Assembly: GCF_033110965.1 (NCBI RefSeq) | Contig: NZ_CP137003.1 | Coordinates: 1,240,001-1,304,000, forward strand | Direction: 5' to 3' | DNA: 64,000 nucleotides | From: Raineyella sp. LH-20 | Lineage (GTDB): Bacteria > Actinomycetota > Actinomycetes > Propionibacteriales > Propionibacteriaceae | Shown: piece by piece, positions 7,339 through 43,647 of the stretch | Numbering within the stretch: position 1 is the stretch's first letter | Layout of the letters: each line of letters begins with the position of its first letter | Notes under the pieces: model-generated | Database searches by the model: none | What the model was told of the DNA's origin: nothing | What the model saw: the letters and a program-made list of their open reading frames with translations, nothing else | Translations under genes and position numbers: made by a program

Positions 7339-8433
7339 ATGGAACCCAATGACCAGAGACCTGTCGACCAGGAACCCGGCGACCAGGAACCCGGCGACCA
7401 GGGACGTGACGATCGGGAACGTGACGATCGGGAAGGTGACGATCGGCGGTCCGCCGACCAGGGGCCCGGAGCCCGCGGGGCCGCGGACGACGGGACCGAC
7501 GGGACTGACGGCGAGGCCCTGGACGCCTACTCCCGGGTCGTCACCACGGTCGCCGAACACCTGCTCCCGCGGGTGGCGGCGGTCCGCATCCGCGACACCC
7601 GCGGAAGAGAGTCGGAGGGCTCGGCGGTCGTCCTCACCGCCGAAGGGCACCTGCTCACCAACGCCCACGTCGTCGGCCGGGCGCCCGCCGGGGAGGCACT
7701 CTTCGCCGACGGCAGCACCTCGCCCGTCGAGGTCGTCGGTCGGGATCGGCTGGCCGACCTCGCGCTGCTGCGCGCCGAACGCGAACTGTTGGCCCCGCCG
7801 ACCTACCGCGACGTCGACGATCTGCGGATCGGCTCCCTGGTCGTGGCGGTGGGCAACCCGCTGGGCCTGACCGGCAGCGTCACCGCCGGGGTGGTCAGCG
7901 GGCTGGGCCGGTCGCTGCCGGTGCAGACCCGCAGCGGGATGCGGCTGATCGAGGACGTCATCCAGACCGACGCCTCGCTCAATCCGGGCAACTCCGGGGG
8001 TGCGCTCGCCGACTCGGCGGGCCGGGTGATCGGCATCAACACCGCTGTCGCCGGCCTCGGCGTGGGTCTGGCGGTCCCGGTCAACGCGACGACCCGGCGC
8101 ATCATCGCTGCCCTGATGCACGACGGCCGGGTCCGCCGGGCCTACCTCGGGTTGGTCACCTCGCCGGCGGTCCTGCCACCGCGATGGGCCGAACGGACGG
8201 GGCGTCGTACGGCCCTGCGGGTGATGGAGGTGGTCCCCGGCAGCCCGTCGGCGTCCAGCGGCATCCTTCCGTACGATCTCGTCCTGGCGGTCCAGGGCCG
8301 TCAGCTCGGCGACGCCCAGTCGCTGCAGCGGCTGCTCTTCGAGGACGCCATCGGCAGGCGCCTGGAGATCACGGTGCTGCGTAACGGGGCGCTGGTCGAC
8401 ACGGTGGTGGTGCCGGCGGAGCTGGCCGACTAG
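7339..8433 (+). CDS. HtrA/DegP-like trypsin-type serine protease with PDZ domain
   Basis: A 364-residue S1C-family protease. The catalytic triad is readable as TNAHVVG (His), DLALLR (Asp) and NPGNSGGAL (Ser), and a PDZ domain fills about residues 270-360. There is no signal peptide or transmembrane segment, so unlike most actinobacterial HtrA proteins it may be cytoplasmic. The first 50 residues are a repetitive acidic tail built from repeats of D-Q-E-P-G and D-R-E, the product of an in-frame minisatellite. The stop codon lies in the first unit of a 31-32-bp repeat that continues downstream. Confidence 0.87.
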   Translation: MEPNDQRPVDQEPGDQEPGDQGRDDRERDDREGDDRRSADQGPGARGAADDGTDGTDGEALDAYSRVVTTVAEHLLPRVAAVRIRDTRGRESEGSAVVLTAEGHLLTNAHVVGRAPAGEALFADGSTSPVEVVGRDRLADLALLRAERELLAPPTYRDVDDLRIGSLVVAVGNPLGLTGSVTAGVVSGLGRSLPVQTRSGMRLIEDVIQTDASLNPGNSGGALADSAGRVIGINTAVAGLGVGLAVPVNATTRRIIAALMHDGRVRRAYLGLVTSPAVLPPRWAERTGRRTALRVMEVVPGSPSASSGILPYDLVLAVQGRQLGDAQSLQRLLFEDAIGRRLEITVLRNGALVDTVVVPAELAD

Positions 8434-8506
8434 GACCAAGGCCCCCGGCGGAGCTGGCCGACCAGGACCAAGGCCCCGGCGGAGCTGGCCGACCAGGGCC
8501 AAGGCT
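8413..8506 (+). repeat. 31-32-bp tandem repeat spanning the protease stop codon
   Basis: Three copies begin at 8413, 8445 and 8476 with CCGGCGGAGCTGGCCGAC. The first encodes the last residues of the protease and its TAG stop. In the two downstream copies the stop reads CAG, so these copies would be coding if read in frame. The block looks like duplication of the gene's 3' end. Confidence 0.85.
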
Positions 8507-8604
8507 CCGGTGGCTGGCGGCCTGCTGCACCCCATGGCCGAGCAGCGCCCGGACCCGGCCGCGTCGGCCTGCTCGTGCGGGCTCGGGCTCTGCCGAGTCG
8601 ATAC

Positions 8605-16106: not shown

Positions 16107-16110
16107 ACTG

Positions 16111-16372
16111 GGGTGACCGTGTGTGCTGGGGCACTCCACGGGGATGGATCCGGCGTCCACCGTGCCAGCGGTGACCGTGTGTGCTGGGGCACTCCACGGG
16201 GATGGACCCGGCGTCCACCGTGCCTGGGGTGACCGTGTGTCCTGGGGCACTCCACGGGGATGGACCCGGCGTCCACCGTGCCAGGGGTGACCGCGTGTGC
16301 TGGGGCACTCCACAGGGATGGATCCGGCGTCCACCGTGCCAGGGGTGACCGCGTGTGCTGGGGCACTCCCTC
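16111..16372. repeat. 58-bp tandem repeat array, 4.5 copies, non-coding
   Basis: Copies start with GTGACC at 16113, 16171, 16229, 16287 and 16345, an exact 58-bp period, with only a few substitutions between units. Each unit contains CTGGGGCACTCCAC and GGCGTCCACCGTGCC. The period is not a multiple of three, so the long frames crossing it on the minus strand cannot be a repeated protein. With the inverted repeat before it, this fills the 493-bp gap 16011-16503. There are no unique spacers, so it is not a CRISPR array. Confidence 0.93.
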
Positions 16373-23537: not shown

Positions 23538-24287
23538 ATGACAGTGCCTGCACGGGTGCCGCAGCGCGCGGCACGCCGCCGCGCCGACATCCTCCGGACG
23601 GCCCGCCGGCTGTTCGCGGAGGAGGGGATCGGCCCGGTCACGCCGGGGCGGATCGCCAAGGAGGCGGGGATCAGCCCGGGGAACCTCTATTACTGGTTCG
23701 GTTCCAGGACCGAGATCGTCCACGAACTGTTCGCCCAGTGGATCGCCGATTCCGGACTGCCCGCCGACCTCGGCCAGGACCCGTCCCCCGATCCGGCGGA
23801 CATCCTGGCGCTGCTGTGGGGACGGATCCCGGCCCAGCACCGGATCAACGAGGACTACGCCTTCTTCCAGCGCGAACTGCTGCCGCTGCTCCACGCCGAA
23901 CCAGCCCTCGCCGCGGAGTACCGCCGCAACCACGCGGCGCGGGTCGATCTGCTCGTCGAACTCACCGAGCAGGTCATCGCCGCCGGACTGCTGCGACCCC
24001 CGCGGCCTCCGGCCACCGTCCGTGTGCTGGTCGAGGTGCTGTGGCTGGTCGCCGAGACCGCCGGGCCGTTCGCCCGGGCGACCGGGGACGGTGGCCTCGA
24101 TGCCACCCGACTCGCCCGGGCGGTGATCGGGCCGTCGTTGACCGACGCCGGGCGCCGGGCGCTGGCTCTCGCCGACCCGTCCGACCCCGCCGCCGACCCG
24201 TCCGATCCTGCCTCCGGCCCGTCCGATCCCGCCGCCACCCCGGCCGACCCCGCATCCGCTCCGACCGACCCCGAGTCCCGACCATGA
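23538..24287 (+). CDS. TetR-family transcriptional regulator
   Basis: A 249-residue repressor. Its N-terminal HTH domain spans about 10-60 (VTPGRIAKEAGISPGNLYYWFGSRTEI), and a TetR C-terminal ligand domain follows. The last 35 residues are an unstructured tail of DPSDPA-like repeats encoded by a 24-36-bp minisatellite (24172-24280). It is translationally coupled or nearly so to the nitroreductase gene. The start at 23538 places the operator just upstream. Ligand unknown. Confidence 0.85.
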   Translation: MTVPARVPQRAARRRADILRTARRLFAEEGIGPVTPGRIAKEAGISPGNLYYWFGSRTEIVHELFAQWIADSGLPADLGQDPSPDPADILALLWGRIPAQHRINEDYAFFQRELLPLLHAEPALAAEYRRNHAARVDLLVELTEQVIAAGLLRPPRPPATVRVLVEVLWLVAETAGPFARATGDGGLDATRLARAVIGPSLTDAGRRALALADPSDPAADPSDPASGPSDPAATPADPASAPTDPESRP

Positions 24288-40483: not shown

Positions 40484-42790
40484 GTGACCGAACTGTCGCT
40501 ATCACCGGCGCCGGCGACACCGCTGACGTCCTTCATCGGCCGCGAGGAACTGGTGTGCCATCTGGTGGACCTGGTCCGGCAGCGCCGGTTGGTGACCCTG
40601 GTCGGGCCGGGCGGCATCGGCAAGACCCGGCTGGCGGCCGAGCTGTGCACCCGGCTGGACCAGGACTTCCCCGACGGGACAGCCGTCGTCACCCTGGACG
40701 CCATCTCCGACCCGGCGGACGTGCCCTGGCGCACCGCCTCGGCGGTGCAGCCGGTCGACCAGTCGGTGCAGGACCCGGTGGAACAGGTGCTCGGCCACCT
40801 GCGTCCGCGCAGCCTGCTGCTCGTCCTCGACAACTGTGAGCACCTGCTCGAGGCCGCCGCCGAGCTGGCCCGGGTGATCCTCCAGGAGTGTCCCGGGGTC
40901 CGGATCCTGGCGACCTCCCGCGAACCGCTGGGGATCCGGGGTGAACAGGTGCAGGTGGTGCCGCCGCTGCAGGTGCCCGCCTCCTGTGCCGACCTGGACG
41001 TCGTCCGGGAGTCGGAGGCGGTCCTGCTGCTGGTCGATCGGGCCGATCGGGCCGGTGTCCGGCTCATCGTGGGGCCGGACAACTGCGCGCAGGTCGTCGA
41101 GTTGTGCAGCCACCTGGACGGGATGCCGTTGGCGATCGAGCTGGCCGCCGCCCGGCTGCGGGCGCTCGGCGTGGGGGACCTGCTGGACCGGCTCGACCAG
41201 CGGTTCTCCCTGCTCAAGGGGTCGCCCCGCGACATCCTGCCCCGGCACCGTACGCTCGAGGCGCTGGTCGACTGGAGCTACGAGCTGTGCACCCCCGCCG
41301 AACGACTGCTCTGGTCGCGGCTGTCAGTGTTCCGCGGCGGCGCCGACCTGGACGCCGTCGAGACCGTCGCCGGGTACGGCGCGATCGACCCGGCCGACGT
41401 GATCGACCTGCTCGACGGTCTGGTCGCCAAATCGGTGCTGATCGCCGAACCCGTCGACGGCGGCACCCACTACCGTCAACTGGTCACCATGCGCGACTAC
41501 GGGGCCCGTGTCGCGGTCCGCGCCGACGAGTGGGAGGACCTGCGCCGACGCCACGCCCGGCTCGTCCTCGAGCGCAGCGGCCAGATGCACCGGGAATGGG
41601 CCGGGCCACACCAGGCGCAGTGGCTGCGCCGGGCCCGCCGCGACGTCGCCGAGGTGGTGGCGGCGATGGACTGGGGGATCGCCGATCCGGCGGCCCACGA
41701 CACCGCCGCGGCGATCGCCGCCAACCTGCGCTACTTCTGGGCCGGCGGCCACACCATGGCCGCCGGCCGCTACCGACTGGAGCGGGTGCTGGCGCTGCCC
41801 GACGTCGCCGCGCCGCTGCGCTGCGAGTGCCTGCTGGTCGTCTCCTGGGTGGCGATGCTGCAGGGTGACCACGCGGACGCGGCCCGTACGTTGGCGGAGG
41901 CGTACGACCTGGCGACCGAGCTGGGCGACCGGCGACGGCTGGCCGAGGTCGACACCTGGAACGGCCTCTACTGCCTCTTCGAGGGCGAACCGGCCCGGGG
42001 CGTCGAGCTCTACCGGCGTGGCATCGCGGTGCTGCGAGAGGTCGGCGACATCGCCGCGATGCAGACGGCCATGTTCCAGCTCGCGCTGTGCCAGATCTAC
42101 TCCGGCGATCCGACCGGCGGCGGGGAGACGTGTGCGGAGATCCTCGCCGAGAGCCGCCGCAACGGTGAGGCCTGGGTCAAGGCGTACGCCCTGTGGGTGA
42201 GCGGCATCGTCCGCTGGCGACAGGGCGACCTGGCCGGGGTGCGGGCGTACGCCACGGACGCCCTGCGGCTGCAGGAGGTCTTCGAGGACGGCATCTGCAC
42301 CCCGCACGTCCTCCTACTTGCCTGCCAGGTGGTGATGGCAGGCGGCGAGGTGCGCCGGGCGGCCCGATTGCAGGGCGCCGCGGACGCCCTGTGGCGGGCC
42401 CAGGGCACCGGCATCGACGCGTTCGGACCCGGTCTGGCCGGAGACGCCCGGGAGAGCCGCGAGCGGATCCTGCGGGTGCTCGGCCGTGAGGAGGCCGAGG
42501 CGCTGATGGCGGAGACCGCCGATCTGGACCTGCGCCAGGCGATCGAGGTGGGGCTTGCCGAACTCGCCCTCACCCCGGTGACGACACCGGCGGAGGCGGG
42601 CCTGACGAAGCGCGAGGCCCAGGTCGCCGAGTTGGTGGCCGAGGGGCTCAGCAACAAGCAGATCGCCACCCGGCTCACCATCTCCACCCGCACCGTCGAC
42701 GGGCACGTGGAGCACATCCTGGCGAAGTTCGGCGTCACCTCGAGGGGCCAGGTGGCCGTACGCCTCCGCGAGACCAGGCCGATCCGATGA
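40484..42790 (+). CDS. STAND-type ATPase / LuxR-family transcriptional regulator
   Basis: A 768-residue signal-transduction ATPase. An N-terminal NB-ARC/AAA domain has Walker A VGPGGIGKTRL at about residue 40 and Walker B SLLLVLDNCEHLLEAA. LATSREPLGIRGE is the sensor region. A helical TPR-like section (about 420-680) follows, and the C-terminal LuxR HTH is LTKREAQVAELVAEGLSNKQIATRL. Such proteins usually activate genes after ligand-induced oligomerisation. Being divergent from the phenol hydroxylase operon, it is the best candidate for its activator (inference). GTG start after GAGGAG. Confidence 0.88.
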   Translation: MTELSLSPAPATPLTSFIGREELVCHLVDLVRQRRLVTLVGPGGIGKTRLAAELCTRLDQDFPDGTAVVTLDAISDPADVPWRTASAVQPVDQSVQDPVEQVLGHLRPRSLLLVLDNCEHLLEAAAELARVILQECPGVRILATSREPLGIRGEQVQVVPPLQVPASCADLDVVRESEAVLLLVDRADRAGVRLIVGPDNCAQVVELCSHLDGMPLAIELAAARLRALGVGDLLDRLDQRFSLLKGSPRDILPRHRTLEALVDWSYELCTPAERLLWSRLSVFRGGADLDAVETVAGYGAIDPADVIDLLDGLVAKSVLIAEPVDGGTHYRQLVTMRDYGARVAVRADEWEDLRRRHARLVLERSGQMHREWAGPHQAQWLRRARRDVAEVVAAMDWGIADPAAHDTAAAIAANLRYFWAGGHTMAAGRYRLERVLALPDVAAPLRCECLLVVSWVAMLQGDHADAARTLAEAYDLATELGDRRRLAEVDTWNGLYCLFEGEPARGVELYRRGIAVLREVGDIAAMQTAMFQLALCQIYSGDPTGGGETCAEILAESRRNGEAWVKAYALWVSGIVRWRQGDLAGVRAYATDALRLQEVFEDGICTPHVLLLACQVVMAGGEVRRAARLQGAADALWRAQGTGIDAFGPGLAGDARESRERILRVLGREEAEALMAETADLDLRQAIEVGLAELALTPVTTPAEAGLTKREAQVAELVAEGLSNKQIATRLTISTRTVDGHVEHILAKFGVTSRGQVAVRLRETRPIR

Positions 42791-42876
42791 GCCCGGAGGC
42801 GCCGATGAGCCCGGAGGCGCCGATGAGCCCGGAGGCGCCGATGAGCCCCGAAGCGCCGATGAGCCCGGGTCCCGGC
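42787..42876 (+). repeat. 18-bp in-frame tandem repeat carrying repeated start codons
   Basis: ATGAGCCCGGAGGCGCCG repeats from 42787 with ATG codons at 42787, 42805, 42823, 42841 and 42859. Each intact unit supplies GGAGG five bases before the next ATG, so the repeat is a ladder of ribosome binding sites and starts. The fourth unit reads CCCGAAG and lacks GGAGG. Confidence 0.9.
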
Positions 42877-43647
42877 AGGCCACCGATCCGCCGGCTGACC
42901 GGCACCGAGCCCGCCCTGGGTGACCTCGACCTGGTCCGGGCACTGGGGGAGGAACCGGGCGTACGGGCCAACATGGTCGAGTCGGTCGACGGTCACGCCA
43001 CCATCGCCGGCCGGGTCGGTGCCCTCACCGGTGCCGCCGACCAGGCGCTGCTGGCGGCGTTGCGGGGGTGGTGCGACGTCCTGCTGGTCGGCGCGGGTAC
43101 GGTCCGTGCCGAGGGCTACGGCCTGCTCGACCTGCCGGCCCCGGTCCGCGACTGGCGGCTCTCCCGCAGGCGTACGCCCCGGCCGCTGCTCGCGATCGTC
43201 TCCGGCAGCCTCGACCTCGACCCGGCCCTGCCGGCCTTCGCCGATGCCGCGGCGCAGGGGCCGGATGCGCTGCCCTGGGTGGTCACCGTGCCCGGGGCCG
43301 ATCCTGGGCGGCGGGCCCGGCTCGCCCCGTACGCCCACTTCCTGGAGGTCGAGCCCGGGCCGGACGGCCGCCCGTCGCTGCCCGGCGCGGTCGCCGCGCT
43401 GCGGGCGGCGGGCATGGTGCGGGTGCTCAGCGAGGGCGGCCCGGCGGTCCTCGGCAGCCTGATCGGTGCCGGGGTGGTCGACGAACTGTTCCTCACCGTC
43501 TCGCCGGTGCTGGTCGGCGGGGACGGGCCGCGGATCCTGCGGACCGACGGCTACGACGCCCCCGTCCCGCTGCAGCTGCTGGAGGTGCTTGGCGCCGGCG
43601 ACGAACTGTTCCTGCGCTACCGGGTGGGAACGGGACGGCGGATGTAG
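42787..43647 (+). CDS. RibD C-terminal / dihydrofolate reductase-like pyrimidine reductase family protein
   Basis: NADPH-dependent reductase domain of the RibD-C family, 286 residues from the first start. After four MSPEAP repeats come NMVESVDGHATIAGR, WCDVLLVGAGTVRAEGYG, the cofactor region MVRVLSEGGPAVLGSLI and VDELFLTVSPVLVGGDG. RibD's deaminase half is absent. No other riboflavin gene is nearby, so a riboflavin role is not assumed. Any of five ATGs (42787 to 42859) could start it. The first overlaps the LuxR stop by ATGA. Confidence 0.85.
   Translation: MSPEAPMSPEAPMSPEAPMSPEAPMSPGPGRPPIRRLTGTEPALGDLDLVRALGEEPGVRANMVESVDGHATIAGRVGALTGAADQALLAALRGWCDVLLVGAGTVRAEGYGLLDLPAPVRDWRLSRRRTPRPLLAIVSGSLDLDPALPAFADAAAQGPDALPWVVTVPGADPGRRARLAPYAHFLEVEPGPDGRPSLPGAVAALRAAGMVRVLSEGGPAVLGSLIGAGVVDELFLTVSPVLVGGDGPRILRTDGYDAPVPLQLLEVLGAGDELFLRYRVGTGRRM

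Follow-up and report, generated by a model that had tools for sequence, protein, structure and literature searches.

Overlaps in which the stop codon of one gene and the start codon of the next share the sequence ATGA usually couple the translation of the two genes (Huber 2019, PMC6728339). This coupling is reported to be local, with a distance of +14 nt losing 40-80% of it and a distance of +38 nt losing nearly all (PMC10666635, 2023). The main texts of both papers present one junction per gene pair and contain none of the terms 'duplicat', 'tandem' or 'repeat(s)'. In E. coli ascB, a 10-nt duplication that doubled the ribosome binding site (RBS) was accompanied by 5- to 6-fold higher expression, the report leaving open whether transcription or translation was affected (PMC4488073). 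In Neisseria meningitidis, 19/55 repeat tracts of strong candidates are described as flanked by several in-frame ATGs (PMC5084427).

The locus studied here lies in Raineyella sp. LH-20, in a window of 64,000 nucleotides (the whole stretch of DNA that was analysed), and shares one trait with each of these systems. As in the ATGA termination-reinitiation pairs of PMC6728339 and PMC10666635, a LuxR-type regulator and a reductase overlap stop to start as ATGA, whereas the junction in Raineyella is repeated. As in ascB, there is a short tandem duplication at the start site, but ascB as described in PMC4488073 has two copies, laboratory-evolved, and one start codon, against five in-frame start codons in Raineyella. 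As in Neisseria meningitidis, a repeat tract lies close to alternative starts; in the account of PMC5084427 the repeat separates the starts and alters the frame or the choice of start, whereas in Raineyella the unit itself comprises start and binding site and the frame stays constant. In the one open-access collection that was searched, we found related ideas and no such start ladder. The features of the locus are as follows (rungs are the five start codons; SD, Shine-Dalgarno).

40484-42790, + strand: LuxR-type regulator with an ATPase domain, 768 aa, the upstream partner (Pfam GerE E 6.7e-18, AAA_22 E 1.5e-8)
42788-42790, + strand: TGA stop of the LuxR-type regulator (ORF 40484-42790)
42787-43647, + strand: RibD_C-domain reductase, 286 aa counted from rung 1 (Pfam RibD_C E 2.7e-23, residues 59-268)
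42784-42868, + strand: tandem array of the unit CCGATGAGCCCGGAGGCG, 18 bp x 4.7 (TRF score 156, period 18, 95% matches)
42787-42789, + strand: rung 1, ATG sharing ATGA with the LuxR stop, weak SD only (duplex -3.1 kcal/mol)
42805-42807, + strand: rung 2, ATG with GGAGG at 42795-42799 (SD duplex -9.5 kcal/mol)
42823-42825, + strand: rung 3, ATG with GGAGG at 42813-42817 (SD duplex -9.5 kcal/mol)
42841-42843, + strand: rung 4, ATG with GGAGG at 42831-42835 (SD duplex -9.5 kcal/mol)
42859-42861, + strand: rung 5, ATG without GGAGG, CGAAG upstream (SD duplex -1.9 kcal/mol)

The initial annotation had described a ladder of five start codons, most with an RBS of their own, and the ladder proved real. 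The ATGs at 42787, 42805, 42823, 42841 and 42859 share one frame in a 286-aa ORF ending at 43647, and the array is not a chance product, since the highest TRF score across 20 dinucleotide-shuffled windows was 83, compared to 156. 'Most' amounts to three of the five: the GGAGG-5nt-ATG spacing is present at rungs 2, 3 and 4 and absent at rungs 1 and 5, which are preceded by CCAGGCCGATCCG and CCCGAAGCGCCG, respectively, both without GGAGG. The 18-bp unit does encode MSPEAP and place GGAGG at a usable distance from the next ATG. As had been claimed, adding or removing a unit preserves the frame, 18 being divisible by three. The tandem repeat sits in or beside the start site, a trait expected of contingency (phase-variable or tuning) loci. 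That the array could be an assembly artefact within a repeat seems very improbable to us; it is known from one genome only, but that genome is one contig of 3,632,335 bases with 100% completeness, and unit 4 is distinct, so that collapsed copies would be the likelier error.

The claimed overlap of the reductase with the LuxR gene was likewise borne out, the LuxR stop and the first reductase ATG forming ATGA at 42787-42790 as in ATGA pairs, and the LuxR frame upstream of it looks coding by GC phase. Judged from its sequence, the downstream gene is a RibD/Rv2671-like reductase: it scores 83.3 bits against the Pfam cut-off of 24.1 for RibD_C, which places it in that family, and 163.6 bits against the NCBIfam PRK14059 pyrimidine reductase equivalogs, under their curated cut-off of 184 and thus outside that group. 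The nearest solved structure is M. tuberculosis Rv2671 (PDB 4xrb, E 6.5e-28, residues 56-255), a protein assigned to the folate pathway in PMC10530724. The conserved domain begins at residue 59 (RibD_C) or 56 (Rv2671 match), and every rung lies outside it, because rung 5 is residue 25.

Congeners G001, G002 and G003 were compared with the Raineyella sp. LH-20 genome, one genome per species. The reductase gene is present in 4/4 genomes of the genus. In each of the three congeners it begins at a single ATG, its start carries no array and its product lacks an MSPEAP-like N-terminal tail. G001 has the same LuxR ATGA overlap at an equal distance from the common RET codons; its GGAGG lies within LuxR, 7 nt before the start. 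In G002 the reductase ATG lies 47 nt past the LuxR stop, with an additional in-frame GTG 15 nt upstream of the ATG. In G003 the LuxR stop overlaps, as GTGA, the start of a 230-codon ORF, and the reductase comes after it with an SD of its own. Among the genus loci, this intervening ORF (L002) is found only in G003; it has weaker matches (38-40%) elsewhere in all 4 genus genomes. Across the family, reductase matches were found in 86/198 genomes at E 0.001, many of them partial. We inspected the starts at 31 reductase-like loci (4 from the genus, 26 from other family genomes and one from an Acidimicrobiia MAG). Among these 31, the repeated ATG ladder occurred only in the Raineyella sp. LH-20 genome, and LuxR was next to the reductase only in the 4 genus loci, in G003 with the extra ORF between.

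The junction can be aligned to the LuxR end of G003. With the array (four full units) omitted, 30/38 bases are identical, and over the 21 downstream bases rung 5 matches G003 at 15/21 and rungs 1-4 at 10/21; among 72 RTGAGC sites in the window on both strands, the next best match to G003 was 13. This suggests that rung 5 was the original start and that four units were added by slippage, a comparison with a single congener, whose LuxR gene is followed by a different gene. In our reading, the array arose recently, by tandem amplification of a stop-start junction.

From these data we consider the following course probable. A lone start overlapping the LuxR stop as ATGA would have been multiplied by replication slippage into 18-bp units, each added unit bringing another ATG, in the reductase frame because of the unit length, and another MSPEAP on a non-conserved N-terminal tail. 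Three of the added starts would have a good RBS because the unit holds GGAGG five bases before the ATG. Ribosomes ending LuxR would restart at rung 1 and some would also initiate on rungs 2-4, resulting in reductase with tails of varied length on an identical enzyme body. Because coupling is local (PMC10666635), and rungs 2 and 3 are +14 and +32 nt away, respectively, restart is expected mainly at rung 1. Rungs 2-4 would need fresh initiation at their own GGAGG, possibly hindered by predicted structure.

Initiation strength was estimated from SD duplex energies with the textbook anti-SD core and from opening costs in a simple folding model over 30 bases around the start. The congener starts had SD duplexes of -9.5 (G001), -8.5 (G002) and -10.3 kcal/mol (G003). 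An SD motif within the upstream gene, usual but not universal in ATGA pairs, was not found in LuxR for the overlapping rung 1 (-3.1 kcal/mol versus -9.5 kcal/mol at the homologous G001 start). The predicted opening costs of rungs 1-5 were 14.5, 19.8, 19.0, 16.1 and 14.0 kcal/mol, respectively, compared to 11.0 (G001), 11.5 (G002) and 8.6 kcal/mol (G003) at the congener starts. Rungs 2-4 (16.1-19.8 kcal/mol) are thus predicted to be harder to open than the starts of the three congeners (8.6-11.5 kcal/mol), and with these three starts as the yardstick the predicted structure speaks against easy initiation there. These values weaken the earlier proposal that the array makes the reductase independent of LuxR, since rung 1 retains the ATGA overlap typical of coupling and rungs 2-4 are predicted to be costlier to open than congener starts.

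The same opening costs are consistent with a neutral minisatellite, in which the array would be a slippage product with a tolerated tail and one rung (probably rung 1 via ATGA, or rung 2) would do nearly all the initiation. We hold this to be quite possible, a little short of probable. The position of the tail outside the conserved domain agrees with it, as does the fact that none of the three congeners keeps the array. Since the window and the genome carry other arrays away from starts, slippage could be a general process here and the array could be neutral. In the window, 51 TRF rows reach a score of 40 and 6 reach 100 or more, which means that strength alone does not set an array apart there. 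The top-scoring array of the window is a 58-bp x 4.5 tandem array (95% matches) at 16110-16369; others are a 31-bp x 3.1 array at 8413-8510 and a 21-bp x 5 array at 24170-24273. Elsewhere in the genome, a 19-bp x 7.1 array lies between genes at L093:3255-3388 (G000:C1 near 3295255) and a 60-bp x 3.2 array at L093:3903-4097. The three intact GGAGG-ATG pairs argue against neutrality, and so, weakly, do the changes in unit 4, both of them synonymous.

Two third codon positions distinguish unit 4 from units 1-3 and leave MSPEAP unchanged; these two differences are why GGAGG is missing ahead of rung 5. As 11/54 single changes in the unit are synonymous, the chance that two would both be so is p about 0.04, which gives a weak hint from the sequence that the reductase tail is translated from some upstream rung. 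With GGAGG not kept in unit 4, the binding sites are evidently not all maintained. A unit that preserves MSPEAP and destroys GGAGG is what would be expected if the repeat were retained for the tail peptide and not for the starts; we regard this as improbable, as a similar tail is found in no congener and the tail lies outside the domain of the family.

The initial annotation had also suggested that the number of units may tune expression. Judged from the array, such tuning is plausible: the unit keeps the frame and brings its own GGAGG, and the RBS doubling at ascB went together with raised expression (PMC4488073). A full ladder of this kind, in which slippage alters the unit number and selection acts on the amount of reductase, nevertheless appears rather unlikely to us in view of the predicted opening costs and of rung 5, which is without GGAGG. 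Our preferred reading stays with an ATGA start amplified by slippage and put to mixed use.

Start-site duplications were also searched for in other genomes. In the Raineyella genome itself, the pattern GGAGGN{4,9}ATGN{1,30}GGAGG had 54 matches versus 25 in the reversed control. The duplicated GGAGG-5nt-ATG pattern was matched in 30/197 family genomes and 31/394 class genomes, and the duplicated GGAGG-spacer-ATG pattern in 46/394, 16/394 and 54/394 class genomes with spacers of 6, 7 and 8, respectively. Single pattern matches mean little, because the reversed control also matches in many genomes. We retained near-identical copies only if GC content by codon position placed the beginning of the coding frame at the array (the gene-start rule). 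Among the matches listed, the rule was passed by 14/45 chains from 117 loci and by 4/15 chains from 35 loci; the loci were up to 30 listed matches per search plus 13 regions of other genomes picked by eye, and the pass counts are not rates. The 42/60 chains that failed (31/45 and 11/15) were not counted as ladders. Two of the 18 passing chains are doubtful (L162 and L183) and one is the Raineyella sp. LH-20 array itself (L089). Two further candidates in the Raineyella genome were rejected: G000:C1:3295328, a 19-bp x 7 array where no long ORF starts and whose upstream ORF we take to be ribosomal protein S15, and a 30-bp repeat at G000:C1:3155866 (L212), which fails the gene-start rule. The clearest arrays in other genomes are as follows.

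L215:1494-1640 (G215:C1 near 4629067): 30-bp x 4.9 in-frame ladder, five GGAGG-8nt-ATG rungs, MOSC gene (Pfam E 1.9e-23)
L135:1464-1540 (G566:C140): four ATGA rungs 26, 23 and 23 bp apart, preceding a P450 gene
L152:1495-1532 (G378:C65): three ATGA rungs, 17-bp unit, preceding an acyl-CoA dehydrogenase gene, 6-residue mini-ORFs

The MOSC ladder resembles the Raineyella array as an in-frame repeat with five GGAGG-ATG rungs, and differs from it in belonging to another family and gene and in having no ATGA overlap, the upstream stop lying 18 nt before the first GGAGG. It has eight in-frame ATGs altogether, each with an SD-like stretch; in the stretches examined, each of its nearest MOSC orthologs (G597 and G590) has a single start. 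At L135 the upstream gene ends on the first ATGA, and three mini-ORFs of 8-9 residues follow, each stopping on the next ATGA; mini-ORFs terminating on the next ATGA also occur at L139, L143, L170, L171, L188 and L203. The genome with L152 carries, at L130, an 18-bp in-frame pair ahead of another acyl-CoA dehydrogenase gene. A weaker case is L115, with a 15-bp pair ahead of a 489-codon frame that matches no Pfam family. Among the loci examined, the length of the Raineyella array is reached only at L215 and at the doubtful L162 (five copies). A coding-like upstream ORF stops on an array ATGA in 6/18 chains (L089, the Raineyella array, and L135, L139, L143, L187 and L204). By their sequences, repeated starts recur at unrelated actinobacterial genes, and this recurrence is the most interesting result of the analysis.

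Among the matches listed, the unit lengths of the 18 start-type loci fell into classes 0, 1 and 2 modulo 3 with 7, 2 and 9 loci, respectively. A class with at most 2 of the 18 loci has p 0.033, and without the Raineyella array and the two doubtful loci the figure is 2/15 (p 0.079). The prediction on phase preceded the spacer-8 search, which by itself did not confirm it (1/4 start-type loci was 3n+1), and the permitted unit lengths favoured class 0 slightly in two class searches. The shortage of 3n+1 units is suggestive only; such units would enter the gene out of frame, and selection should remove them if the additional starts were used. The first rung read ATGA in 13/18 start-type chains versus 5/42 other chains (Fisher p 8e-6), although true starts may often read ATGA anyway. 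We offer tentatively, as possible but not likely, the view that actinobacterial genes repeatedly shift their translation start by tandem amplification of the start site, a route so far unrecognised, with 3n units giving in-frame ladders (the Raineyella reductase and MOSC) and 3n+2 units at ATGA giving relays. In a relay each copy would form a mini-ORF of 6-9 residues whose stop overlaps the next start, and coupling would be passed on stepwise.

Arrays at start sites would mislead automatic start-codon annotation, and a recurrent class of them merits a proper census. The relays would provide a test of whether terminating ribosomes hand over along chained, overlapping mini-ORFs. If the rungs of the Raineyella array are used, the unit number would be a frame-safe dial on both translation and N-terminal length, arising from a single common type of mutation.
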